From Coniochaeta sp. PMI_546 (lineage: Eukaryota; Ascomycota; Sordariomycetes; Coniochaetales; Coniochaetaceae): 64,000 nucleotides of DNA. The notes beneath the pieces are model-generated. The model was not told the origin of the DNA and did no database searches. It was given only the letters and a program-made list of their open reading frames with translations. How positions within the stretch are numbered: the first letter of the stretch is position 1; each line of letters opens with the position of its first letter. Position numbers and translations under genes: made by a program. Where the stretch lies: positions 186,001 through 250,000 of the forward strand of contig MU271160.1 in assembly GCA_021432605.1 (NCBI GenBank), in the 5' to 3' direction. Positions 3,682 through 60,752 of the stretch are shown here, piece by piece.

Positions 3682-4390
3682 ATGAGCGATGTAAGTAACC
3701 GGTCATGGCACCCTTGAGGAAGTCCCGGTGCATATTACAGATCATGAAGCTAACCACATGCTCTCCCTCTCTAGCAAGCCGAGACCGGTCTCCCATCTGG
3801 ATGGGAAGTGCGTCACAGCAACAGCAAGAACCTACCCTACTACTTCAACGCCGCCGAGAAAAACTCACGATGGGAGCCTCCAGAGGGCACCAACACCGAG
3901 AAGCTCAAGGTATACATGGCCAAGTATCACAGCGGCACCTTCCAACCCACCGAGGGAGCCCAGCCGGGTAAGATCCGGGCGGCACATCTGCTAGTCAAGC
4001 ATGCGGAGAGCCGGAGGCCGTCGAGCTGGCGCGAGGTGAGTACATCCACCGTCTCTTTAGCTATCACGACGATGGTCGTGTTGGAAAAGACGCTAACTAT
4101 GACCTTTTTTCCGGTTCTGTCAGGCGTCAATCACCCGCACAAAGGACGAAGCCCGCGAGATAATCAAGCGTCACGAAGAAACCATCAAAAGCGGCAAAGC
4201 TAGCCTCGGTGACCTGGCCGAAACGGAGTCGGACTGCAGCAGTGCGCGGAAGAGGGGTGATCTCGGGTATTTCGGCCGCGGAGACATGCAAAAGGAGTTC
4301 GAGGACGCTGCCTTTGCGTTACAGCCTGGCGAGATCAGCGGCATCGTCGACACCGCGAGTGGGTTGCATTTGATCGAGAGACTGGAATGA
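3682..4390 (+). CDS. ESS1: Pin1/Ess1-type peptidyl-prolyl cis-trans isomerase
   Basis: This is a parvulin-type prolyl isomerase that acts on phospho-Ser/Thr-Pro sites, including the RNA polymerase II C-terminal domain. Three exons, 3682-3690, 3775-4035 and 4124-4390, encode 178 residues, the usual fungal length. The N-terminal WW domain is clear (LPSGWEVRHS through YYFN to SRWEPP). The catalytic domain follows with IRAAHLLVKH, a basic phosphate-binding patch (SRRPSSWRE), the Cys-containing SDCSSARKRGDLG and the end GLHLIERLE. Exon 1 is a nine-base exon (M-S-D) directly followed by GTAAGT. Both introns are phase 0, 84 and 88 nt. The upstream neighbour RPB9 is also a polymerase II component, but that is probably coincidental. 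Confidence 0.96.
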
Positions 4391-13193: not shown

Positions 13194-13746
13194 ATGGCGG
13201 CTTCTATTCAGGGTAACGATGGCGGCCAGTAAGTAATTACCTACACCGATACGCCTTACTAGACTGCTTATCCGGCACAGGTCTGTGCCGCAAATTTCAA
13301 ACCACCACAATTCCATCTCTTCCCAAGCGAGCGAAATACCAGCTATCATCGCGCTGCCAGCCAGAGCAGACGTTATCGCCCCGGACGGATCCGAGGTCCG
13401 TATCCTAGCTAAGACAGACCGCGCCAGTATGGCCAACTTTCGCCTGGCGGCAGGGCAGGTGACCATCGGCGTAGTGCATCGCACAGTAGACGAGGTATGG
13501 ATGGTGACCGGCGGCGAGGGTATTATCTGGCGCTGCCCGGACGGACGACCGGATCTTGGGTTTGAGGACAAACTAGTTCCAGGAGTTAGCATACCGATAC
13601 CTGTGGGAACTCACTTCCAGTTCCGCGCCGCGGAGGGCACGTTTCTTGACATTTTAGGCGTCACTGTCCCGCCATGGCCGGGTGAGAATGAGGCGATTGT
13701 GTCTAACGTTGCGCCGTGGAAGCCTAACATTGCTGTTGTCGCTTGA
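13194..13746 (+). CDS. Small cupin-domain protein
   Basis: A single cupin beta-barrel, probably metal-binding, of unknown substrate. The second exon alone lacks a sensible ATG. An upstream exon 13194-13228 (MAASIQGNDGG) with a GTAAGT donor joins in phase 2 to the acceptor CAG at 13278-13280. This gives 166 residues. Cupin motif 1 is seen around VGVVHRT-like residues, with VHRTVDEVWMVTGGEG: the His and Glu spacing is right and the conserved glycine turn is present. Motif 2 is weaker (PVGTHFQFRA). Similar short cupins are often single-domain enzymes or binding proteins of secondary metabolism. No cluster is visible around it. Confidence 0.75.
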
Positions 13747-15982
13747 GAGATTGGCTGGTGTAGGGCGTAGGGCGCTTAGACGGAGAGGGGATGGAGAAAT
13801 GGCCGTACCTGAACCGTTCAGTTAACGAGCATCATCGTCATGGCTACCTATAAAGTGCTTCGCAAGTCCTTATCCTAGCTAGACAAGAGATTGCAGTACG
13901 TGACTCGGCATCGTATGTGGCGTCTGCCTGCCTCGACCCTAAGCCTCGATGAAAACAACAGCAACTTGATGGTTGGACGTCATGCCTTGTGATTATCGGT
14001 GTCAATATTGCACGGCACGCCACCTGATGAGGAGATTCTGTCAAATGATTGACCGCTTGCTTGAGTGGTGAGCCACGGCCCTTGGCTTCAAACGAGACAT
14101 GCTGTGGGTATGTATAAACAACGGCCACTAGCTGACTGCCTTCCTCCTCATGACCATCTCCATGACCATTTGCCTACCTTTACTTAATATTTGGCAAGCG
14201 ACGCATCTCACTCGCCAGTTTGTTTTAGCATAGTCACAAGTTAGATCTAGAGCTCTCGCCCCTCGTCTGTTCTGTCAAAGGGCAGTCGCCGGTTTTTCCA
14301 GCTGGCATCAATGACGGCATCGAGGTCTCAGAATTGCTATTTGCTTCGGCCTTTATCATGGAGACTTCGTAAATGCAACCCGTCTTTGTTGTCGGTGTCT
14401 TTGCCATGTGCTTATATACTTACTTAGCATTGTCTTCTGCAACAAAGAGCTTCGACCTATCGTGACGATGACAGGAACGGAGGAACTTCTCAGCTAACAG
14501 CTACTCTAGAGTCCAGTCCATGCCTATACTGATGATGCACCTTCGTGAAGTAGGGTCAACGGGAAGTCCTCGGTTTTTCGTTCTAGGTCTTGCAGGTGAC
14601 CCTGCCTGTCGGATAGATCTTAACTCTCATCCTGAAGGACTTGGTGGTGAACGTCATGGCCATAGCAAGCACCCCTTCATGAATCATTACCCGAAGTCAC
14701 AGTTTGTCGGTGCCATGTGATGACCAACAACCCTACAAGTGCTCCAGTCTTGGATGGGACTTTTTCGCTCGTGCAATGACTTCTGTACCTATAATGTAGA
14801 CTGCTATCATGACGCACTATGAAGGCAATACCTAGATCGAGGTATTCACAGATTTTCTCGGCCGATAGGAAGTCCACATTTGCTTCTCAGGGTCGGGTCC
14901 CTAGCTTCAAATTCAAAGTCAGGAACACTCTGGCAACTCTTGTCCGGACCTATCTCGTGGCCGCGGGAACAGTTTCGTGACTTACATAGACATTCGGTGT
15001 GTTATACCTTTCGCAACCTCGACAGCCGCACTTTCTGTAACGCCAATTATGATTCACATGCAACCAAATAGACAGGAAATGGCTTCAGGTCCGAATCCTC
15101 TAGACCTGGTGAGTGTTTGCAAGCTGGACACTCGGCAGCTCCTCGTCGTTGTACGGTAGAAGACGGCTTAAGGCCTTAAACTAATATCATATGTACATGG
15201 TGATGGACGAGACCGTGCTGCTCTTTGTGATCCTGACAAGGGGATGGAGTACGCGAAGTGATGATATCGTGCTTCCAATTTAAGATATATGGCCGAAAGA
15301 CCGCAAGACTCGAATATGTTGGTTGCATCCGGATTCGTAGTGTCTAACAGGACCATTATATGGATGTTAACAGATATAACTGCTAATATATTTGTATATG
15401 ATGTTACCCGACTACGTCCGATCGAACTTTATCTTGTCTGAATTCACGTTAGGGGTGACTTTGACTTGATTTTAAAACGGATAAGTCGTACTTTTGACGC
15501 CAGCTGGGCTGTTTCCTACTGAGGCGCATGCTACAGTAGCGTTCTGTATCAAAAGCTCCAAGTCTAATCCACGACTTAACGCACTCATAGGCAACACGTG
15601 CGGCTGGTACGCTGCACATATACCTGCACCTACAGGTCCCACCACACTCGATTCGTCTGAACCGCCTACGAAGATTGGCAAAAGCAAAGCGTTGTATATC
15701 TCCTCTGAGTGTCATGGGAGCTTCACTGGAAAAGCTAGAAATACAGTCGAAAGGCTTCGAGTCAAATACTTCTGGGGTATGCCGACATCTAAAGGAGTGA
15801 ACTCATATCATTTCATGGACCGAGAGATCGCATAGCTAAGCACAGTTTCCAATCTTGTAGCTATTCCCGCTGGTGCTTGCCTATGAACGTATTCCATTCC
15901 ACCCATCGTCGTTATTGACGCAGAGTCTAAGCTTCGTTAGTGAGGCCACAGCTAAGGCTGGCAGACCAGCACTTACCCTCAT
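13747..15982. other. Gene-poor region left of the metallothionein
   Basis: About 2.2 kb with only short frames. The stretch 15181-15480 is noticeably AT-rich. Frames of 70-113 codons overlap on both strands at 15449-15835, but none has a recognisable domain. The right edge includes the 3' flank of the metallothionein gene. Confidence 0.4.
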
Positions 15983-16048
15983 TTACTTGTGGACGGGGCA
16001 GTCAGCACAGCTGCAAGAGGCGCCGCAAGAACAGTCGTTGCCGCACAT
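15983..16048 (-). CDS. Mini-metallothionein, MMT1-like (21 residues)
   Basis: This is a 21-residue protein beginning MCGNDCSCGASC and ending in CPVHK. It has six cysteines at positions 2, 6, 8, 12, 14 and 17 (C-x3-C-x-C-x3-C-x-C-x2-C) and no aromatic residues. Size, start and cysteine spacing match the Magnaporthe MMT1 metallothionein family. MMT1 is a six-cysteine protein of 22 residues needed for appressorial cell-wall function; related short fungal proteins bind copper or zinc. The open frame continues upstream, but the ATG at 16048 gives the family-typical start. A TATA-like element lies about 150 bases upstream. The gene is far below usual ORF size cut-offs. Confidence 0.82.
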   Translation of the reverse strand: MCGNDCSCGASCSCADCPVHK

Positions 16049-16191
16049 GATGATGATTGGAAGTGCTTGACTAATATGTTTGATTTCGGCTTGGATAGAG
16101 ATAGGATGTTTGGCTTGCTTGAGGAATCGAATGTTTATCAGAGAGCTGACAAGAGGGGGATGTGCCAAGCCAAGGGTCGGGAGACCCTGAG

Positions 16192-16200
16192 CTATTTATG
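16192..16200 (-). promoter_or_regulatory. TATA box-like element of the metallothionein gene
   Basis: On the minus strand this reads CATAAATAG, about 145-150 bases upstream of the metallothionein ATG. It is the best TATA-like match in the region; role inferred from position only. Confidence 0.35.
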
Positions 16201-17945
16201 CTTTGAATGGATCAGGTCAGCCGCCTTTGCCGAGTGCGACTATGGGTCTTACTGCCGGCCGACAACAGGGGAGTCTGAGGGTCTGAGGGGCTGTCCTGCA
16301 GTGAGAGCAAGTTTCGCCGCTTGTAACTGAGGTGTGCCTCACTAGGGAGTTTGACATGCATAAAATATGCCCTCAAATATGGGGGTGGTGTGTGGGTTAG
16401 GGGATTGATTCGCTGCCGTTTCCTCGCGAGTCTTGATCTCCACCCGCGTAAGGGACCAATCCACCACGGGTAGGGAGGGCGTATAAGAGGCCCCCGGAGC
16501 TCACCGCATACAATGTGCTCCATCGTGACACTGCTGCACAATAGAACCGATATTACAGAGCGAGCTCCTGACGGCAACAACCACCCGGGAACACCCAATG
16601 AACATCGTCACCCCCACAAAGTCTTGTTACTCTGTGTTGTGATGCTTGCGAGAAGGTGGCGCGGAGATATCAGAATCGAGGCTGCGATCCAGTGTCATGC
16701 ACGTCAGTGAGGCAAATGATCGGAAACCATTCGGACACGATCGAAAGACGTATGCCTAGACACTGTGCGCCACTCGGCAACCTGTTTATGCATGTGTTTG
16801 CAGACGATCAGATGATCTGGGCATAACATAACTACACGTACATTCGTTGCCGTGGGATGAAACTGATGTCATAAGATCACCTAACGCGAACGATGGTCAA
16901 GCGCATTAAGGGTTGAGTGCTGCCCAAACCGCGTGACCAGTCGACGTACCAGCTTTGAGCTGTATGTCGGGACGACTGAGATGGCATGGTCAAGCTTAGA
17001 TGGCCAAGGAATTGTTCGAGAAGTTGTCCACGAAGGCAAAGCCGGAAGTGGATACTTCCTAGCTGAACTCTGGATGTTGACTAAGAAGACCTCAGCGTGG
17101 TCCTGTCCCACCAGGGCTACACAGGGGTCTCTCGAAGTCCGTAAGCGGATGGCGTCGTTCATGCGAGCCGGTTATGACCTAAAGCAATGGTTTTAACATC
17201 TTTGAACTGTGTCTCGTGCGTGGTATTCTAGTAATGAGTTAGCATATGCACAGAGGTAGGAGACACTCAGGGAAACTGAAGTCCCGTTCAAAGAAATGGT
17301 CTTACTGTGACGGAGCTCTCAACACAACCTTCAGCTCATGCACTGATATCAGTTCGTCTCTAGCTCTCTATATATCAGAGTCTAACAACTGCTGTCACTG
17401 CTCATTCGATATCCTGAACGTTTGGCGCACTGCTATTGGCAGAATATCAGGTATGGTCTCCACCTGGAGAGATCGACAGGTGAGCGGAGGCGGTAGAACC
17501 ATCGACTGATATGGTTAACTGGCTGCTAAATGTCAGAGTAAATGAGTTGCATAGATCAGGTAGACATTACAGAGATAAACTCTGGGCGTGGCATAGAGAT
17601 AGTAAGACAGGTCCCAGTCCGGTAGTCTTGAGTTTAGAATCGACTGGGAAGACATTTCCGAGCACCGATCTTCGGTGTCGAATAAGGTAAGTTGCAACTT
17701 GCGGTTGGCAGTTGTCGCCTCTTTTTCTTCTGGTTTGCATCCTAAAGATAATGGCACAATGGACACAATACTCGGATGATCTTACTGGTCACGTGGACTG
17801 GCGGGCGCGTTCTGATGCAGGGCCCGCAACGCGTCACACATAACGCGTCTAACCTAGCTCCTAACTTGAAACATCATTCCAAGTTGCGTAGGGCTGCATG
17901 ATTGCAGAAATCGTGCGATACTACCTTAGTACATCATGAGTGAGT
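16201..17945. other. Gene-poor region right of the metallothionein
   Basis: Only short, overlapping frames. No transposon termini or recognisable domain. The right edge is the promoter of the RecQ gene. Confidence 0.4.
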
Positions 17946-20951: not shown

Positions 20952-22626
20952 ATGGCCGGCGCAAATGGAGATGTCACCAATGGCGAGGCTCGCCCGCCAG
21001 TACCGGTCCTAGAGGCGACCAAGCAAAGCATCAAGAAGTCAGTCACCGAATTGATCGGTAACACGCCCTTGGTCCGGTTGAACAAGATCCCCCAGTCCCT
21101 CGGAATCGAGGCCGAAGTCTACGCCAAGGTAGAGCTGTTCAATGCTGGCGGCAGTGTCAAGGACAGGATAGCTTTGCGCATGGTTGAGGAAGCTGAGAAG
21201 AGCGGGAGGATCAAGCCAGGCGATACCTTGATTGAGCCCACGAGTGGAAACACGTAAGTTACGATTTTGGACATTTGGCTGTAGCGAAACATGAGCTAAC
21301 CCGGCATGTGATTTCAGGGGCATTGGCCTTGCTCTCGTGGGCGCCGTCAAGGGCTACAAGACTATTATCACCCTCCCCGAGAAGATGTCTGCCGAGAAAG
21401 TCTCGGTTCTGAAAGCGCTCGGCGCTACGATCATCCGCACACCGACGCAGGCTGCGTGGGACAGCCCGGAGAGCCATATCGGCGTCGCCAGACGTCTGTT
21501 AAAAGAGATACCCAACTCGCACATTCTCGACCAGTACACAAATAAGGACAACCCTGAGGCTCATGAGTACGGCACTGCGGAGGAGATTTGGGCTCAGACT
21601 GGCGGAAAAGTGGATGCTATTGTTGCTGGAGCAGGAACAGGTGGCACAATCACTGGTCTCGCCCGCGGACTGAGGAAACACAACAAAAACATTAAAGTGG
21701 TAGCCGCCGATCCGTTCGGAAGCATCCTCGCCCTTCCAGAGGCTCTGAATGAGGAGAAGGCGAACATTCCCTACAAAGTGGAGGGTATCGGCTACGACTT
21801 CATCCCCGACGTCCTGGACCGCGAGGTTGTGGACAAGTGGTACAAGACCGACGACCGTGAGTCGTTCATGTACGCGCGACGACTAATTGCCGAGGAAGGT
21901 TTGCTCGTAGGAGGCAGCTCAGGCAGTGCTATGGCTGCCATGGTGCGCGCAGTGAAGGATTTGAACCTCGGCAAGGGCGATGTCGTCGTCGTGATCCTGC
22001 CAGACAGCATACGGTCGTATCTGTCCAAGTTCGCCGACGACGATTGGCTCGCGGCCAATGATCTCCTTCCGGCCACCGAACCCGTCAACGGACCGGATGC
22101 AGACCCTGCTCACGAGAGGAAGTCTGCGTCCAAGCGACGACCTAGCGACCCGTACGCCGGAGCCACGATCCGTGACCTCCGTCTCAAGCCAGTCACCTCA
22201 GTCCTGGCCGATAGCCCGTGCAGCGAGGCTATCGAGACTATGCGCGAGAAGGGATTCGACCAGCTGCCAGTCCTCGGCAGCGCCGGCGGTAAGCTTGTCG
22301 GTCTGGTTACTCTCGGTAATCTTCTCAGCTACATCTCTCGTGGGCGCGCATCGGGCAAGAGCCCAGTCAGCCAGGTCATGTTCGACTTCAGCAAGCTTGA
22401 TGAGGTTGTTACCGATCCCCGCAAGATGGGTGGCGGTGGCCAGGGCACAAAGCGGAAGTTTGTGGACATCACGCTGGACACCCCTCTCTCTGCCTTGAGC
22501 AAGTTTTTCGAGTGGAACAGCGCTGCTGTTGTCACGGATAAGGTCGAAGGCGGCGGCAAGAAGCCGGTTGCGATTGTCACCAAGGTGGACTTGTTGACGT
22601 GGGTGGTGAAGCAAGTTAAAGTGTGA
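20952..22626 (+). CDS. CYS4: Cystathionine beta-synthase
   Basis: This PLP enzyme condenses serine and homocysteine to cystathionine, the first step of transsulfuration to cysteine. Two exons, 20952-21253 and 21318-22626, encode 536 residues. The PLP lysine is K70 in NAGGSVKDR. The substrate loop TSGNTGIG spans the intron, and the phosphate-binding loop GAGTGGT is at about 205-211. GGSSGSA follows near 299. The C-terminal part from about residue 384 is a pair of CBS regulatory domains ([13 protein letters not shown]...), as in yeast Cys4. There is no heme-binding N-terminal extension of the animal type. Upstream frame includes a GTG, but MAGANG at 20952 is the first ATG. The 64-nt intron is phase 2. 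Confidence 0.96.
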
Positions 22627-34721: not shown

Positions 34722-35855
34722 CTAAGAAGAGTTGCAGCGTCCAAACTCCGGCTGGCATCCGAGCAGTGGGACGCAGTATTGCCTGTCGTCGCCACAGAAA
34801 CCCCATTGAGAACAGCACTGGCCGCCGCTTGACCCGAGACAGGTGACTCCGTTGCCACACGTGCCGTCTGTGCTCGATCGCAAACCTGCTGGAATTGAAA
34901 CCGAGGGTGTCGATACCGAGGAAGTGGTTGTGCTTGTTCGCGAGGTAGTTGAAGTCGTGGGCGTCGGGGTGATGATGATTGGCGTGGAACTACTCGTTGG
35001 TGTTGGTACAAGCGTAGTCGAGATCCCGACAGTTGTAGTCACAACAGAAGTTGCGGTGGCAAAGGATGTCACCGTCTGCGTGATCGTTGTGGTTGCCGTG
35101 ATCGGAGTCCCAGCACCGACAGAGACCGTGACCGAGGTCGTGACGTAGCTGGTGATAGTGACAGTTGAGACTCCGCCTGCCACACCGCACGATCCGAATT
35201 GCGACAGACACCCGCCACCGCAGAACGAATCCTCGTTGCCACAGTAGTAGAACTGGGAGCAGCAGCGGCCGAACCGGGAGCCTGCGCAGGTGGTGCCATT
35301 TCCGCACATGCCGTTTTGGGAGATTTGCAGCGGGCCAGTATACGGGGGAGAGGTGGAAGTGGGAATTGGCGTCGACGATACAGACGTAGACGAAACCGTA
35401 GAAGTGGAGGTTGGCGGTGGCGGTGTCGTCGAGATACTGGTGCTACTGCTAGTGCTCGTTGGCGTCGTGCTGGTTGAGGTCGAACTCGGGGTGCTCGTAG
35501 GCGCGGCGGACGATGTTGATGAGGAGCTCGAAGGTCGGGGTTCTCCCTCGCACCAACCAAACGCCGGCTGACATCCTACAATCTGTGGACAGTACGAGTC
35601 GCCATCACCACAGTACCCGAAGGCCGAGCAGCACAAGGTGCCCGAGCATATCGCGCCTCCACCGTCCGCTCCGCAACGGCCACCAGCCTGCCGCCGCTCT
35701 AGCGGCGCCGAAACGTCGACATCCGCCGTGTCAGCTCTCACTGCCAAAAGATCCTCGAGCGAGCCAATGCCGCTATTGTCGAAGGAAGCCTGCGAGAGTC
35801 CTGAGAGACCGAGCTGCAGCAGCAGCGCTAGCCCGAGGTGATTCCACTTCATCAT
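34722..35855 (-). CDS. Secreted chitin-binding protein with three CBM18 modules
   Basis: A single-exon gene encoding 377 residues from the ATG at 35855 (MMKWNHLGL). The signal peptide covers about 24 residues (LALLLQLGLSGLSQA). Three hevein-like CBM18 modules are visible by their eight-cysteine pattern: GGRCGADGGGAICSG..CCSAFGYCG, then NGMCGNGTTCAGS..CCSQFYYCG, then DGTCGNGVTCLGS..CCSQWGFCG. They are joined by long Ser/Thr/Pro linkers, likely O-glycosylated. No catalytic domain is present. A role in binding fungal or host chitin is inferred. The in-frame ATG 19 codons upstream is less likely because it would bury the signal peptide. Confidence 0.9.
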   Translation of the reverse strand: MMKWNHLGLALLLQLGLSGLSQASFDNSGIGSLEDLLAVRADTADVDVSAPLERRQAGGRCGADGGGAICSGTLCCSAFGYCGDGDSYCPQIVGCQPAFGWCEGEPRPSSSSSTSSAAPTSTPSSTSTSTTPTSTSSSTSISTTPPPPTSTSTVSSTSVSSTPIPTSTSPPYTGPLQISQNGMCGNGTTCAGSRFGRCCSQFYYCGNEDSFCGGGCLSQFGSCGVAGGVSTVTITSYVTTSVTVSVGAGTPITATTTITQTVTSFATATSVVTTTVGISTTLVPTPTSSSTPIIITPTPTTSTTSRTSTTTSSVSTPSVSIPAGLRSSTDGTCGNGVTCLGSSGGQCCSQWGFCGDDRQYCVPLLGCQPEFGRCNSS

Positions 35856-35939
35856 TGGCCTTGTTATCGCAGAAAACGGGGTGCAGAAAACGACGACATG
35901 AATAGCAACCAATCTTGTCCTCCAGCACAGGGGGCTGTG

Positions 35940-35946: not shown

Positions 35947-37074
35947 TGCGCTCATCGTGAGGATCATAGGGATCGTGGCCCGGGAGAACTTGGAGTTTAG
36001 GATAATTGGAGATTGGACATGTAATGCTCCGATAGTAATACCAGGCAAAATATGATTAGATGTATGATGATGTGGAGGGTAGCATGGAGGGCACACGCCA
36101 GGTACCAGTTGTGACGCTGAGGTAGGTTTCAATCCCCAATTCCAAGCCGGGAAAATGCTCATGTCTTCTGGAAGCCAACGAGGTAGTAGGCGGCACCGAC
36201 AGGCGAGGCCATGCCGGGCAGCAACGGACAGCATACCTGCAGTGTCGAGAGAGGTTCGTAAATGCCGGTTGCCGTCTTACCGAGGAGGCCCTTGGCGTTG
36301 GCGAGTCCGCTGGAGTGGAACCATATTGATGGTCCCGTTGGCTATAACGGCGCATACATCTCGTTATCAGCTTGAGAGATTGGCTATTTTCCCGACGACA
36401 ACGAACGGAACGCTTAGCCCCGATGTATACAATCGGCTATCTCTGAGGTTGAGAGACCAACTACGATCTCGGATCAAGGATGGACCTTCCGCTCGCGCTG
36501 CCTCATGGCATCTGATCTGATGTTCGCTGATCTTCCTGCGCGACTTTCCCGGGTTCAATGACACCGTTCATGCATCGAGTGACAGTCGTTCGGGCGTTTT
36601 TCTGTGGTTCGGGATGTTGCATGTCTTCGCAAACCTGTGTCGCAGATCCCGAGGTCTGTGTGCTCCAAATTCCTCGTTTGTCCAGATCAGATCCAGATTG
36701 ACGGGTGAAGTGCGACTGATGATCCGCTGTGTAAATTAAGGCACAGATGGGCCCTCGTCAAATGGGGGCTAATGTGCCTTACATCGGCTTGTAGTCGATT
36801 AGGCGGCAAATGCGTGGGAGCAACTAACCATTTACATTTTATCGTAGAAGCCTTGCTTCACAACGACATCACGCCATAATCCTGGCCCACATGCGCAACG
36901 GAATTGAGGGTGATTCCTTCCTTCTCGGTTGACGTTGAATTACGGATTCTCGTTCGTTTCTCGTGCGGGGTAACCTGTTTGACGACATCAATGTTCCGAC
37001 AGCGGATGGGAGCATTCTGGTATAACTCGTCAAGCAGACAACCTCACTCACTTCCCGTCATATCCTCTTGCATC
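35947..37074. other. Intergenic region with short frames
   Basis: Divergent region between the CBM18 gene and the glyoxalase-like gene. Frames such as 36155-36520 (plus) overlap minus-strand frames and look like chance. Confidence 0.4.
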
Positions 37075-38001
37075 ATGTCACCGTTATCTACACCCGTGCT
37101 TGACCACATCGTCATTCTTGTTTCCAGTGACTTTTTGGCCAACGTACCATCGTGGCTCGCAGATTCACTTACCGTTTTACCTGGCGGTACACATGCCGAT
37201 GGGTTGACGGAGAACAAACTGGTCGTTTTCGAGGATGGAGTGTACCTTGAGCTCATAGCCTTCGTCGAAGGTGTTGAGCCCGAAAAGCGACAATCCCACC
37301 GTTGGGGACAGAGGGCGGAGGGTCAGATCATTGACTGGGCTTGCACGTTGCTGCAGGAGGGCTCCGACACCAGCCCAGAGGAGCACTTTAGTGCTGTCCA
37401 AGACCGGGTACGGTCAGCGCAGACCGGATTCAACTACACAAATCCGGTGCCAGGGGGAAGAATAACTCCGGATGGGACTGTGCTGAAATGGGCTATCTCG
37501 ACACCACATGTCGACACGGCGGGACCCAATGCCAATCTCAAGCTCGCCGGAGGTGAACTTCCCTTCTGGTGCTTTGACCGTACACCACGCCCTCTCCGCG
37601 TCCCGCACGCGAATCCAGATAACGTTAAGCATCCCTCTGGAGCCGTCGGGGTGGCTACTGTCACAATCTTTGTCAAGAGCGCGAACGAGGTGTCCCATTT
37701 ACGGCACGTATATGATGCCATTGCAGACGAGTCCGGCAAGCTGCTAGCCGTCGAAGGGGTGGACTCAGCCTACAGGTGGAAAGTAGAAGTTCCGTTTCCG
37801 AACTCATCTACACAATCCGGACTCATATTGCGGAAATGGTCCGAAGAGTCGCTAGACACAAGAACATTGACTTCTGAAAGTGTCCACATTAGCATTGCCC
37901 TATATACGAAGGACAGGAGCGGTCGTCTAGAGGGGAATATTGGGAAAGATGCTCACCTCGTTATAGATTTGATACCATTAGCGGAGAAAGACTTAGCGTG
38001 A
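37075..38001 (+). CDS. Glyoxalase/bleomycin-resistance-like (VOC) domain protein
   Basis: Single exon, 308 residues from the ATG at 37075 (MSPLSTPVLDHIVILV). The start DHIVILV is typical of a VOC-fold beta-strand with its metal-binding His. Then LPGGTHADGLTENKLVVFEDGVYLELIAFVEG carries the glutamate-bearing strand. This matches the Glyoxalase_3 type seen in many fungal proteins. A second VOC half is likely in GVATVTIFVKS onwards. The substrate is unknown; such proteins often act on small metabolites. The frame is open 57 codons upstream, but this ATG gives the domain a natural beginning. The isochorismatase-family gene follows in the same direction. Confidence 0.8.
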   Translation: MSPLSTPVLDHIVILVSSDFLANVPSWLADSLTVLPGGTHADGLTENKLVVFEDGVYLELIAFVEGVEPEKRQSHRWGQRAEGQIIDWACTLLQEGSDTSPEEHFSAVQDRVRSAQTGFNYTNPVPGGRITPDGTVLKWAISTPHVDTAGPNANLKLAGGELPFWCFDRTPRPLRVPHANPDNVKHPSGAVGVATVTIFVKSANEVSHLRHVYDAIADESGKLLAVEGVDSAYRWKVEVPFPNSSTQSGLILRKWSEESLDTRTLTSESVHISIALYTKDRSGRLEGNIGKDAHLVIDLIPLAEKDLA

Positions 38002-42233: not shown

Positions 42234-45200
42234 GTACATCACCTGCTTCAAGTAAGTGAAGTAGATGGAACCCTAGGCAACGGGTGAAGCTTAACGATCC
42301 ACCCCAGCCCTTAGTCCACGGTGGACACAATGGCCGCCACGAGAAGCTTGCTTGGATGATCGTGGTGCCGCCTGCCCCGGACCAGAGCTTGCCCAAGGTG
42401 ACCCTCCATTAGTGAGCATCTCCAGGTTTCTCCATGGTTGTGGATGCACGTTTTGCCCAGATCGTCCGAACTCCGCATGACGATTGCAAAGAGTGGTGAT
42501 GAAAATATCGCGGTCAAGGTCTTACAGAGCGGGGAAGGACGAGCTCATCCCAGGGACGTTGTTGCTGTAGCTAGGTCTAGCAGGGGCAGCTCCATCATCA
42601 TGTCTTTGGACCAGTCTCCAACGAGCAACTCCAACGCGCGATGTCATCAGAAAAGGGCCGATCCCTTCTGGACGAGCAATCAGGTTCCTGTCAATGTTTT
42701 TTTTTTCGGGGCAGCGAATGGACCGGATGGATCTTTGGAGAATGGGGAACCTGAATGTACCGTGGCACAATGCAACAGTGGGACAGGACCGATGGTCAGC
42801 GCGAGCGGGAGGATTTGCGGCGACTTCGGCAGAACGTCGTCAATGGCTGCCACTAACGGCGGGACGGAAGGTACACCGACTGTACCTTCCCCACATCATC
42901 ATCTTGGGGCAACTGCCAGTCTTCCTATCGTATTGGCCAATCTCGAGAAGGAGCTGCCCTTCAAGCTATGACTTGCCAGTGCTTGCCCATGTAGGTTGCG
43001 GGAAATGGACTGTGCTACCCCAGGAAATGCACGCACGTAACCCACACCAGTTCGTAAAAATAAGTGCTGGGTAATTGTCCAATGCGGCAAGTCTTCTCCA
43101 ACAAGAACAAACAACAATAGCAATGTGAACCTGCATGGTAGAGGTATTCGGGGAGGTTTTCAAACCTCAATTTCACCGAGCAGCCTCGAGGCGATCTGCT
43201 ATCCAGATTTGAGAGAGAGATTCATCCGCTTGCCGCTTGGCGCCATTGTGTGCACACTGCAACTGAGGCTTGCGGAGGAAGTCCTCCCTGCTTGTCAACA
43301 TGCAACTGAAATGATGGCTGTTGATCGGAATTTAATCTCACGCTCCAAGCCTCCAATGCAAAAAAAGACGACGCGGCTCGGCATTTGCCCCGTTTCAAAT
43401 CATCACTTCACGGGCCAGGCTTAGGTAACTGCAGTATATTATACGGTGGCAGTCTCCTGACCGTGGCACGACGTCAGCGCAAAACTTTCTGACCTTCCTT
43501 TCCTGGGGTTTTGCGCCAAGTGGGCGCGATCCGAACGAGATCCGGTGACCTTGGTGTATGTAAAAGGCGGCGAAGAAGCACTTTGGTGACGCAGCCACGA
43601 TACAAGACATCATCCTTGGGCCAAGTCGTGACACGGTTGAACTTCCGAGTCGCCCAAGGGTTTCCCGCAACCGCTTCTTACCCCCCCGCATCTAGCTTGC
43701 TTGCTCTTGGCCCAGCGCCACCGATCTGAACCCTCCATCATCCGAACAGATTCCCGAGAATTAACCAGCCCTAGCGCCACCACCGCTCTGCCGCATGCCG
43801 CTTTCCCCAGCATCTCTCCACAAGTCCACACATGCCGCCGGGGAAAAGTGGAGACAGCATGCTCCCCCGGCTTCATCGGGCAGCGGGCACCGGGGCCGAA
43901 CAGGCAGCCACTTTTAGCCCTCCTTGTGCCTTGCGACGAGTGCAGTTCTAGCAATGTACAACAGTTTACTACTGTTGCTAGCCCCTCCAAGCCCCTCGTA
44001 GGGCTCAAAAGCGCAACGAGTCAGCATTGATCGGCCCGTTTTCGTTCCCCTAGTGACCGCACATCCTAGGCTTTTCCGGCGACAAGAGTATAGACAGCGC
44101 GGAGTTGCTGATTGATGCTCTCGGTGTTGTACTGCCAGGCTGCTGTTGTGTGTGCCGAAACGGGTGTCGACCCAGCATGCATCCACACGACGGAGCGCAC
44201 AACTACCATAGTAATTGCTTGTGCAGCATTGCCCAACGGACCGATGCCGACGACAACCCCTGCTAAGTGGTTGCACGTGGAGAAGTGAGACTGGCAGGAC
44301 TTCGGCCCCGTCACTACCCTACGGTGTCGTACGGGATCCAGTGCCTCGTTTGTAACTGGTGACATGCTGTGGCCAAGTTGTAACGTTGTGTAGCAATTCT
44401 CCCCCCCGGTTCTCGGCCTTATTGTCCAACATTGTTGGCCTGTCACTGCACCGATGATGCCATAGCTAGGAATCGGTCTTCTCTACGGGTTCACAGATTA
44501 CCAATTACCAGAGCCTCGGGGCGGCGGTGTTCCACTTTTACTATGTACAAAGGATTCCCACCCGTGAATGCACTCTCATCACGAACTCGACATACTAGAC
44601 TTAGGCCGGCGCTGTTCACATCTGTGGTCTAACCAACAACACGAACTCTCATATACACAATCCCACAGGGTTTTGAGCGGAAATGTGCACAAAATGTTAA
44701 ACAACGGAGCAGTATGTCGCATACACTACTTAACTTCTTCTGTGCGCATCAAAGTCCAACAGTATCACCAGCAACATAGGCCCCCCGTAGCTAGGTGAGT
44801 GTAACAAAGCTCATAGTGTGTAGGCAATTGTAGTCATTGGCCCCACGGAATCAAGCATTGCGGAGTCGGAATCTTACCGTCGTCCTCGAACACTTTCGTG
44901 CCCTTCTACATCCACAAGGGATCAGCTAGCTGCTCTGTAGAGTTAGACCTAAGGCGCCTCGTGCTCCTCATCGAAAGTACAAGTTCGCTGCCATTCTTCA
45001 CCAAAACCCTCAGAGCCACCAGAGAACTCTAGGCTATGCTATCTCAGCCAAGCTGTGCGGGATGCCACTCCTACAATGACTAGTAACTGAGGCCAACAGC
45101 AAGATGGCAGTGAGAACTGTAAGCCGCTGGATACTCTGAACCATCAAGGTGACTGGATAACATGTTGCGATCAACATCTAGTGCCGCTCACATCATTTTC

Positions 45201-45577: not shown

Positions 45578-48500
45578 TCAATCGTGCCCAGAGGCGCGCT
45601 GTCCACTGCTGCCAATATCTCCGCTGGTGCCGAGATAATCCCCAAACACTCTCTGCTCGATATCCAGATCTTTCCAGGCGGCACCGACCTCCCTCTCCGC
45701 AGCCCGGCGGAAGTACACCCGCTTGGCCCACTTCCAGCCCTCGATGCCCAGGAAGAACAAGAAGGCGGCGACGAAGACGATGCCCCACTCCCAGCTGATG
45801 CCGGTGTGCTTGAACACGGCGTGGTTGATGACGGGTATGTACAGCGTGGGGAACAGCGTGACGAAGCCGAGCAGGATGGCCCAAAAGAGGAACTTGTTCC
45901 GCCAGACGTCGTGCATCCACTGGGTGAAGTACTTCTTACTGCCGGGCTGCATGCGGAAGAACGAGCGGCGCATGTCGACCAGCTCCCAGGCCAGGAAGAG
46001 GGCGAACCACGTCAGACAGGCGAAGGCCGTAGCCCGGGCGCGGAAGACGGTGTCGCACGACTCAGAGTATTTGTCGTTGCAGTTGTCTCCCAGGTTCCCG
46101 TTACCCCAGGCGTATACCCGGAGGATGAAGGAGGCGAGACACAGAGCCGCTATCCAGGTGCCGTATACAACCATGTCGATGCAGAACTCCCACGTAAAGA
46201 TACCCGTTTTCAAATCCTGCGGCGGCCGGCGCATGATATCCGGCACCGCACGCTCGAAGCCGAGACCCATGTCCGGCAGTCCAGAAGTGATCATGATGAT
46301 CCAGACGATCTCGACGGGCGCCAGGGGGAAGACGGAGAGGCGGGTGTGGTCCTTGAAGGCGAGGCCGATGAGCAGGGTGCCGGCCTGTGCGACGTTCTCG
46401 GCCAGCACGTGCAGCACGAATTTCTGGATGTTGTTGAAGATGCGGCGCCCTTCCTCGACGGCGGCCACGATGGAGGCGAAGTTGTCGTCCGTCAGCACGA
46501 TGTCCGAGGCGTCTTTCGCCACGTCTGACCCGGACTGGCCCATGGCTATGCCGACGTCGGCGCGGCGGAGGGAGGGCGAGTCGTTTACGCCGTCGCCGGT
46601 CTGAAACTCGTTAGCGGTAAGTGACACAAGGTGGACAAGACGTTGCTTACCATGGCTACAAACTTCTTGCGGCGATGCAGAGCATCAATCATCCTGACCT
46701 TGGTGCTCGGCGCGCACCGGGCAATGACCAGCGGAAGAACCGGGAGCTCATCGACTTGCTCGTCACTGAGGGCGTCGAACTGGCTTGCGGTCATGACCAT
46801 TGCATCCGCGACATCGCGACTGACCCGCTCCATCCGCTTGGGCAAGATACCGACCTCAATGGCAATCGCCTTGGCCGTCCCAGGATGATCACCAGTCAAC
46901 ATATGCACCGAGATACCAGCCTCGTGGCACTCGCGGACGGCGAGAGCAGATTCGGGACGAGGAGGGTCGTACAATCCGATCAGACCGCGGAAAGTCAGAT
47001 CCTGCTCGACCTCGGCCCGCTGCTTGTCAACGTCGTCGTCCGTGATTTCCATGTCCACTTTGCGGCTGGCAAGAGCAAGGACACGCAGTCCTAATCCGGC
47101 AAATACCTCCATGTTTCGCAAGATCTGACCACGGAACTCATCCGTCATCAGAACAGCGGCATCCTCACCAGCACCGTCATCGCGGCAGTACCGTGTGCAC
47201 ACCTTGATGACCCTCTCAACAGCACCCTTGGTGAAAGCGAACTGCTCGCCAGTCTCGGTGCGCTTTATAACAACGCTCATTCGTTTGACATCGCTGTCGA
47301 AGGGGAACTCCGCAATCTCCTGCCACTCAGGTCTGTGGCCCTGCGTCAAGGCCAGTCGGTTCCACGAGAAGCGGCTGGAGAAGACCTGGATGGCGATCTC
47401 TGTCGGGTCGCCGCGGGCGTGCCATTGGCCTTCCTTCTCGAAGACGGTAGCGAGGTTGGCCAGGGTCGCGACGGCGAGAAAATCCTGCAGGCCGGTCTTG
47501 CTGTCCTCGAGGAGTCGTTCTGGGGCAACGATGGAGCCAGCCGCTTTGGTTCGTCCTCCGCAGTCGATCTCTGTCGGTACACGGGAGTCAAAGCGGATGT
47601 CGCCAGTGGTTGGGTTGAATGCCTCGTTCGAGTTCTCGACAGTGTACGTGCCAAGGCTAGGGATCCAGACACTGCGTGCAACCATCTTGCCCTGGGTCAG
47701 GGTACCAGTCTTATCGCTGCAGATGTCCGTCACCGCGCCCAGAGCCTCAAGAGACTTGAGGTTGCGTACGATGACGTTGCGCTGTACCATCCTCTTCGTT
47801 CCAGCCGCCATGGTGATAGTCAGCACAACAACCAGGCTGGCCGGAATCATGGATAGTCCCGTCGCGACGGCATAGATGATGACCTCCTGCTTGGAGTCGA
47901 AGTTGTTGGCGCCCAGCACCACAACTGCAAAAACGACCGCGATGCAGAACAATAGGATAGCCAACTTGCTCAGCTTCTGCTGCAGTGGCGTACCGACATT
48001 GACTCCCAGAAACCGACCTACGAAATCGCCCAGTGTAAGGGCATACGCCTCGACATAGCGTCCAGGGTGCGCCTTGCCCTGGGAATTGCGCTTGACCGGT
48101 CGAAGCGGGGAATCCTTCTTGCGCAGAGCGGCAGCGATAGCTCCAATCTCTGTGAACGTGCCGGTGGCGAAGACGATGCCCTTGGCGCGACCCTTGGTGA
48201 CGGTCGAGCTGCTGTAAGCAACGTTCAATCTGTCGCCTGGGCCCGTCTTGTCGTCGAAGACGCTGTTCTCCGATTTACGCACGGGGAGACTCTCGCCAGT
48301 CAGGAGCGCCTCATCTGTCTCGAAGTTCTTGGCCTCGATGAGCCGAATATCAGCTGGGATGGTATCGCCGGTCTTTACCTCGACCAAGTCGCCAGGCACA
48401 ATCTCTCCAGAGGGGACGACCATGGCCTCACCGCCGCGCACGACGGTGGCGGTCGGCGAGCTGAGGGAGCGTAGGGAGTCCATGGTCTTCTCCGCCGAAT

Positions 48501-48941
48501 ACTCTTGTAAGAAACCGACCACAACGTTGAGCAAGATCACGGCAGCAACGACGCCGCCCTCGATATACGACCCGATGCCAAAACTTACCGCCATGGCCAT
48601 GATGAGCACCTTCACGGGCACTAAATCAGCTCGGTCATTTGTTCGGGACGCCTTCCGAAACGGAAGAAAGCTTGGGGCCTTACTAGAGTCATGGCATTGG
48701 CGACCTGGCCGACAATGATCTTCAAAGGTTGGGGTCCTTCTGCCTCGCCGAGCTCGTTGCGCCCGTACTTGGCCAGCCGGGACTTGGCTTCCTCGGCCGA
48801 GAGGCCGGTGAGGGGGTCGAGCTCGAGCTCCGAGGCGAGTTGTTCGTGGGTGAGGGAGTGGGCCGGCGCGGAGAGCGGCTTGTTGGATTGCCCTGATACA
48901 TGGCCGGCCAGCTGGTCGCCCTTCTCCTTGATCTTGGGCAT
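45578..48941 (-). CDS. ENA1: ENA-type P-type sodium/potassium-exporting ATPase
   Basis: A type IID P-type ATPase that pumps Na+ (and K+) out of the cell at high salt or pH. Three exons, 48941-48684, 48609-46651 and 46600-45578, encode 1079 residues. An N-terminal cation ATPase domain leads to NAMTLVLIMAMAVSFG. TGES is near 190. MIPASL (about 340) is in the ion-binding helix. The phosphorylated Asp is D385 in SDKTGTLTQGK. HGDP-like WHARGDPTEIAIQVF belongs to the nucleotide domain. TGDGVNDSP starts exon 3 at 740. DNIQKFV-like NNIQKFVLHVL and DMRRSFFRM are typical of fungal ENA proteins. Exon 1 joins exon 2 cleanly only with an AAG acceptor (see findings). Intron 2 is 50 nt with canonical ends. 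Confidence 0.95.
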
Positions 48942-59616: not shown

Positions 59617-60752
59617 ATGTCGACAAATGTCAAGGGCAAAGATGGCAAGCCGCCACCAACAGCAGCCACCAACCTGATCGGTTAGCCTCCCCGGCCTCTC
59701 TGGCACTCGTAGAAGACCAATTGGGAATTGCAGAATGCAAATACTAACCACCTTGACATGGAAACAGCCGGTGGAGCAGCAGGCATGATGGAAGCATTAG
59801 TATGCCACCCCCTCGATACCATCAAAGTCAGGATGCAGCTCTCCCGCCGCGGCCGACAACCAGGCATGCCCAAGCGCGGCTTCATCCGCACCGGTGCCGA
59901 GATCGTGAAGCGTGAGACGCCGCTCGGCCTCTACAAGGGCCTCGGCGCCGTCATGACCGGCATCGTGCCCAAGATGGCCATCCGCTTCACCTCCTTCGAG
60001 GCCTACAAGCAGCTCCTCGCCGACAAGAAGACCGGCAACGTGTCGGGCCAGGCGACCTTCGTGGCCGGTCTCGCGGCGGGTGTCACGGAAGCCGTCGCCG
60101 TCGTCACGCCCATGGAGGTCATCAAGATCCGGCTGCAGGCGCAGCACCACAGCATGGCCGACCCGCTCGACGTGCCCAAGTACCGCAACGCGGCGCACGC
60201 GCTGTACACCGTGGTAAAAGAGGAGGGCGTGGGCGCGCTGTACCGCGGCGTCAGTCTGACGGCGCTGCGGCAGGGGTCCAACCAGGCCGTCAACTTCACG
60301 GCGTACACCTACTTCAAGGAGGCCCTCAGGAAATGGCAGCCGCAGTACGACAGCGGTAACCTGCCCTCGTACCAGACCACGCTCATCGGCCTCGTCTCCG
60401 GTGCCATGGGTCCCCTCAGCAACGCGCCTATCGATACCATCAAGACGAGACTGCAGAAGATGCCGGCCGAGGCGGGCACCACGGCGCTGCAAAGAATAAC
60501 GAGGATAGCCTCTGATATGTTCAAGTGAGTTTCGGAGAACCCATGGTGCTTCAACCCCAATGCGCTGTATTTGCTGACGATAGACGGTAAAACAGGCAAG
60601 AAGGTTTCCACGCATTTTACAAGGGCATTACACCAAGGATAATGCGCGTCGCCCCCGGCCAGGCCGTCACATTCACCGTCTACGAGTACCTAAAAGACAA
60701 GCTGGAGAAGAGTGGTCCGGCGATATTAGTCGGTGGGAACTACGAGGAGTAG
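59617..60752 (+). CDS. SFC1: Mitochondrial succinate/fumarate carrier
   Basis: This inner-membrane carrier exchanges cytosolic succinate for fumarate, linking the glyoxylate cycle with mitochondria during growth on C2 compounds. Three exons, 59617-59680, 59768-60524 and 60596-60752, encode 325 residues (yeast Sfc1 has 322). Three mitochondrial-carrier repeats are clear: PLDTIKVRMQLSRR, PMEVIKIRLQAQHH and PIDTIKTRLQKM. The hallmark of this subfamily is the context KRGFIRTGAEIVKRETPLGLYKG and VNFTAYTYFKE. The ATG is MSTNVKGK. The introns (87 and 71 nt) are phases 1 and 2, with a GCTGAC branch in intron 2. Confidence 0.95.

Follow-up and report, generated by a model that had tools for sequence, protein, structure and literature searches.

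The window analysed here, a 64-kb stretch of DNA, contains on its minus strand a frame that opens with an ATG at 16048 and runs for 21 codons, encoding MCGNDCSCGASCSCADCPVHK, to a TAA that ends at 15983. A sequence-only reading had placed at this spot a frame of 21 codons plus stop, starting MCG and ending in HK and carrying six cysteines spaced C-x3-C-x-C-x3-C-x-C-x2-C. The coordinates, the ends and the length of the frame proved exact, as did the cysteine spacing in the minus-strand translation; the strand had been left unstated, and the product of 15983..16048 translated on the plus strand in frame 1 contains no cysteine. On its upstream side the frame is accompanied by a presumed leader and several promoter-like motifs, and on its downstream side by a predicted intron (Table 1).

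Table 1. Features at the metallothionein locus, in window coordinates; negative distances are counted from the ATG.
Feature	Position	Strand	Basis or remark
Mini-metallothionein coding sequence, MCGNDCSCGASCSCADCPVHK plus TAA	15983..16048	-	Translation, cysteine spacing, codon choice (z 3.50)
Predicted 50-nt 3' UTR intron, GTAAGT...CTAAC...TTAG	15927..15976	-	Begins 6 nt past the stop codon
Weaker alternative donor GTAAAT	15981..15986	-	Overlaps the stop codon; speculative
Presumed 5' leader, ATG-free and G-poor, start context CATCATCATG	16049..16198	-	Presumed from sequence
TATA-like ATAAATA at -151	16193..16199	-	One of 3 in the window, both strands counted
Four STRE-like CCCCT at -110, -223, -242 and -355	16154..16403	-	Motif count; function putative

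Four lines of evidence bear on whether this frame is a gene, namely the cysteine array, codon choice, the leader and the intron, and only the first of these makes use of the cysteines. The array occurs once in the window, both strands included, and it was not found in any frame of 60 simulated windows of 64 kb drawn from an order-2 Markov model, which together held 32,241 small ORFs; at least six cysteines within at most 30 residues were present in five of these 32,241. Among the 450 ATG-started ORFs of 15-40 amino acids in the window, the frame encoding MCGNDCSCGASCSCADCPVHK has the highest cysteine fraction (6/21). Its product also displays the general sequence features of metallothioneins, with 21 amino acids, six cysteines (29%), two CxC motifs and no F, Y or W. 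Such a spacing hardly arises by chance. A fortuitous open frame without function could nonetheless be argued from the modest length of 21 codons and from the absence of any match for the peptide among the families of Pfam or of NCBIfam, the latter a library for bacteria and archaea. Set against the cysteine spacing, which the simulations never produced, and against the codon choice, leader and adjacent intron, which all concur, this explanation is very unlikely.

The second line of evidence is the choice among synonymous codons. Using a codon model built from ten long exons of the window, picked by eye, the synonymous codons of the frame depart from intergenic base composition with P 0.00015, and a second model, built from 230 codons of the genome's GAPDH, gave P 0.00065. 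For calibration, 388 ORFs of 15-40 amino acids lying outside the training exons were taken from the 452 in the window; within this set the frame ranks second with the window-exon model (z 3.50) and fourth with the GAPDH codons (z 3.12). One to three other small ORFs thus exceed the frame in codon score and, because such ORFs reach similar or higher values, the codon test lends support without being decisive by itself. A small ORF at 60642-60752 has a similar score and could, by eye, pass for part of a genuine gene, as one of its exons.

The coding-like codon signal is limited to the 21 codons and fades upstream of the ATG: the 40 codons that precede it in the same open frame score z 1.08, against 3.5 for the 21 codons and 4.11 for a first exon of the RecQ-like neighbour on the upstream side. 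This bears on the possibility that the frame is not a gene in itself but an internal or last exon within a longer protein rich in cysteines. In favour of such an exon, seventy codons are open between stops here, with 150 nt separating the upstream stop from the ATG; however, besides the loss of coding signal, the upstream stretch is poor in G and carries the TATA-like box, and the stop codon of the frame precedes a consensus donor. We therefore consider a longer protein highly improbable. The upstream region instead has the look of a leader, with no ATG in the 308 bases upstream of the frame and only 12 G in the 120 bases directly before its ATG. Five ORFs of 65-128 amino acids that overlap or adjoin the frame were considered as genes and rejected, their codon use (z -0.68 to 1.12) not being coding-like; none of the four searched against Pfam gave a match.

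The fourth line of evidence is the intron predicted just behind the stop codon. The window holds three matches to the strict intron pattern, where simulation predicts 0.03; this chance value flatters the site, because the pattern was defined only once the site was known. The other two matches lie at 21254-21317, directly before an exon resembling cystathionine beta-synthase, and at 3691-3774, and a strict match within 40 nt past the stop is found for only one of the 388 small ORFs. With a looser pattern for introns the excess is slight, 34 matches in the window and 26 in simulation. The GTAAAT that overlaps the stop codon might serve as a second donor: conceptual splicing from it to the same acceptor removes the stop and gives a 35-amino-acid form with the C-terminal extension LCVNNDDGWNGIRS and one extra cysteine. 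The gene would then specify two products depending on the donor used, the 21-amino-acid metallothionein through GTAAGT and the longer form through GTAAAT. Since GTAAAT would have to compete with the consensus donor GTAAGT, we judge this barely credible, and the single 21-residue peptide is the product assumed below.

The sequence-only reading had suggested that metal-response elements be sought upstream. The 600 bases upstream of the ATG were scanned with assumed motif definitions, and the copper-, zinc- and metal-type motifs tried show no excess there. Specifically, HTHNNGCTGD (0.53 expected), TGCRCNC (0.45 expected), the zinc-type ACCNNNNNGGT (0.14 expected) and a heat-shock type motif (0.28 expected) are all absent from these 600 bases, and DDDHGCTGD occurs once, at -101 (1.42 expected). 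CCAAT is present three times (1.21 expected). A single Yap-type site at -26 (0.09 expected) falls inside the presumed leader and was given no weight. For the CCCCT motifs, we assume the STRE-like definition of yeast. Four CCCCT within 400 nt are found in 6 of 1272 overlapping windows, four of the six being this upstream region and two lying near 43900, a count that was made post hoc, after inspection of the sequence. The stretch at 43900-44350 is the only other site in the window with four CCCCT or AGGGG in 400 bases. The four motifs may hint, weakly, at general-stress rather than copper-specific control. The missing copper-type motifs may themselves mean little, because the definitions were assumed ones and because the metallothionein of Podospora is copper-induced, according to the available text of PMC2654708; this induction also speaks against control by stress only.

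The genome searched comprises 33.48 Mb in 24 contigs, and a protein search found one copy of the 21-amino-acid peptide in it. The Neurospora crassa metallothionein used as query gave no match in this genome and missed even the present gene, so divergent metallothionein paralogues may exist alongside it. The segment 13000-17900 matches only itself in the genome and is thus no repeat, as far as the search shows. Neither Rfam matches nor tRNA genes were found in the window. Four DNA-pattern scans of viral and prokaryote contigs returned no records, which is little informative, as these collections are not meant for fungi; nor did the genome yield a match to the plastocyanin family, likewise an uninformative result.

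Other matches characterize the organism. The genome has two copper-fist matches, 15 matches to cutinase, spread over about seven places, and one gene for scytalone dehydratase, an enzyme of the melanin pathway, seen as two exon matches. One of these exons is identical to 4std, which we take to be the Magnaporthe scytalone dehydratase, in 86 of 126 aligned columns, and the best solved-structure match of a beta-glucosidase exon in the window is 5nbs, presumably a Neurospora protein. These two comparisons point to an ascomycete outside the genus Magnaporthe. The copper-fist, cutinase and scytalone dehydratase matches are consistent with a filamentous ascomycete that makes melanin and is possibly plant-associated; they are no demonstration of a pathogen. 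Several further features of the window deserve mention in their own right. A 153-amino-acid ORF on the plus strand at 13285-13746 has gene-like codon use (z 3.21) and appears cupin-type by eye, with no Pfam match at E 0.01. The minus strand at 34722-35912 encodes a Ser/Thr-rich protein in which two stretches match the chitin recognition domain of Pfam (PF00187), and the plus strand at 36904-38001 encodes a protein with a glyoxalase-like domain (PF13468). A P-type cation ATPase is recognized by Pfam on the minus strand at 45578-48621 as two overlapping ORFs, which makes an intron near 46600 probable. A run of 10 N at 1649-1658 is probably an assembly gap.

Collectively, the cysteine array, codon use, leader, adjacent intron and Neurospora-type cysteine core give good support to the proposal that a small metallothionein gene lies here, and the frame very probably represents a real gene for a 21-amino-acid metal-binding peptide of a filamentous fungus. 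We put at about 0.85 the probability that this is a filamentous-ascomycete gene, single-copy per our search, for a 21-residue, six-cysteine metallothionein that serves as a putative cytosolic metal buffer. Transcription would start from the TATA-like ATAAATA and yield a short transcript whose 3' UTR is spliced. As the 21 residues leave no room for a signal peptide, the product would initially be cytosolic, its six thiolates possibly enclosing zinc or copper(I) in a small cluster. The peptide would thereby act as a thiol buffer, buffering metal and scavenging oxidants, and its most likely function is that of a cytosolic zinc- or copper-buffering, antioxidant peptide. Gene finders usually apply size cut-offs that peptides of about 20 residues do not reach. 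A fungus may, in consequence, have a metallothionein that is absent from its gene list, and a gene so absent would be overlooked by studies of metal response and infection. The cysteine core combined with an intron behind the stop codon offers a simple search handle for such genes.

The sequence-only reading had gone further and assigned the peptide to the type of Magnaporthe MMT1, with a possible part in plant infection. MMT1 (MGG_09730) has about 22 residues and six cysteines. Set beside the 21 residues and six cysteines found here, these two properties, length and cysteine count, are the basis of the MMT1 label and make it plausible. A stronger version would make the gene an MMT1 orthologue in a plant pathogen, with a product that acts at infection structures and in the cell wall. 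The similar size and equal cysteine number speak for it, and the cutinases and the scytalone dehydratase gene admit a plant-associated, melanin-making fungus; in addition, small secreted metallothioneins are strongly expressed in rust haustoria, as given in the available text of PMC2441471. Against it, 21 residues are too short for a signal peptide, the features of the locus have no bearing on infection, and MMT1 formed a one-species cluster among 36 genomes, which the accessible part of PMC2409186 explains by the failure of members of divergent families to cluster by BLASTP. The available text of a review states that loss of Mmt1 lowers the pathogenicity of Magnaporthe and that the protein is needed for full pathogenicity, and that of PMC12089313 describes its role as not fully characterised. 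According to the same review text, the virulence of Fusarium oxysporum toward tomato or mouse does not depend on its Mt1, which is needed for survival in the phagosome; the mt1 gene responds to zinc but not to copper or cadmium, and mt1 mutants have lower resistance to copper, zinc and cadmium. A virulence role therefore does not follow from the Magnaporthe case, and an infection-related orthologue of MMT1 is, on balance, unlikely here. Nothing at the locus supports the suggested part in plant infection: the CCCCT motifs upstream are of stress type, and the copper and metal motifs tried are not in excess there. An infection role may exist, but it cannot be read off this gene.

Rather, the gene looks like one for an ordinary small fungal metallothionein of a known kind. 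Its closest point of comparison is the N. crassa metallothionein (P02807, family 8 fungi-I, 1t2y), whose C-x-C-x3-C-x-C-x2-C core corresponds to the last five cysteines of the present peptide. BLASTP aligned the two across this five-cysteine core with 7 of 12 residues identical and 11 of 12 positive; the letters of the Neurospora query agree with PDB 1t2y and with a table in the accessible part of PMC4755600. Both peptides have spacers of Gly/Ser/Asn type, lack aromatic residues, end in lysine and are similarly tiny, with 21 residues here against 25-26 in N. crassa. They differ in cysteine number, six against seven. The family 8 pattern given in the same part of PMC4755600 is X2-[CXC]-X5-[CXC]-X3-[CXC]-X2-C-X3, with seven cysteines. 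The last five cysteines of the present peptide fit it exactly, whereas a single cysteine and three residues (C-X3) replace the N-terminal CXC-X5, which places the peptide outside family 8 in the strict sense. A PDB sequence search with the 21-amino-acid peptide gave a best match of only E 0.69, to the segment NCSCGAACNCASC of a plant Ec metallothionein domain (2kak, 'EC protein I/II'), which we presume to be from wheat and which shares the spacing of the five cysteines. As 2kak is a plant protein with a 53-residue chain, the likeness is one of metal-binding arrangement, without kinship being shown, and the presence of the core in this chain as well indicates that C-x-C-x3-C-x-C-x2-C is a general arrangement of metallothioneins. 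With respect to copy number, F. oxysporum Mt1, compared by description only, is reported in the available review text to be the sole metallothionein of its genome, and the one copy found here parallels that situation.
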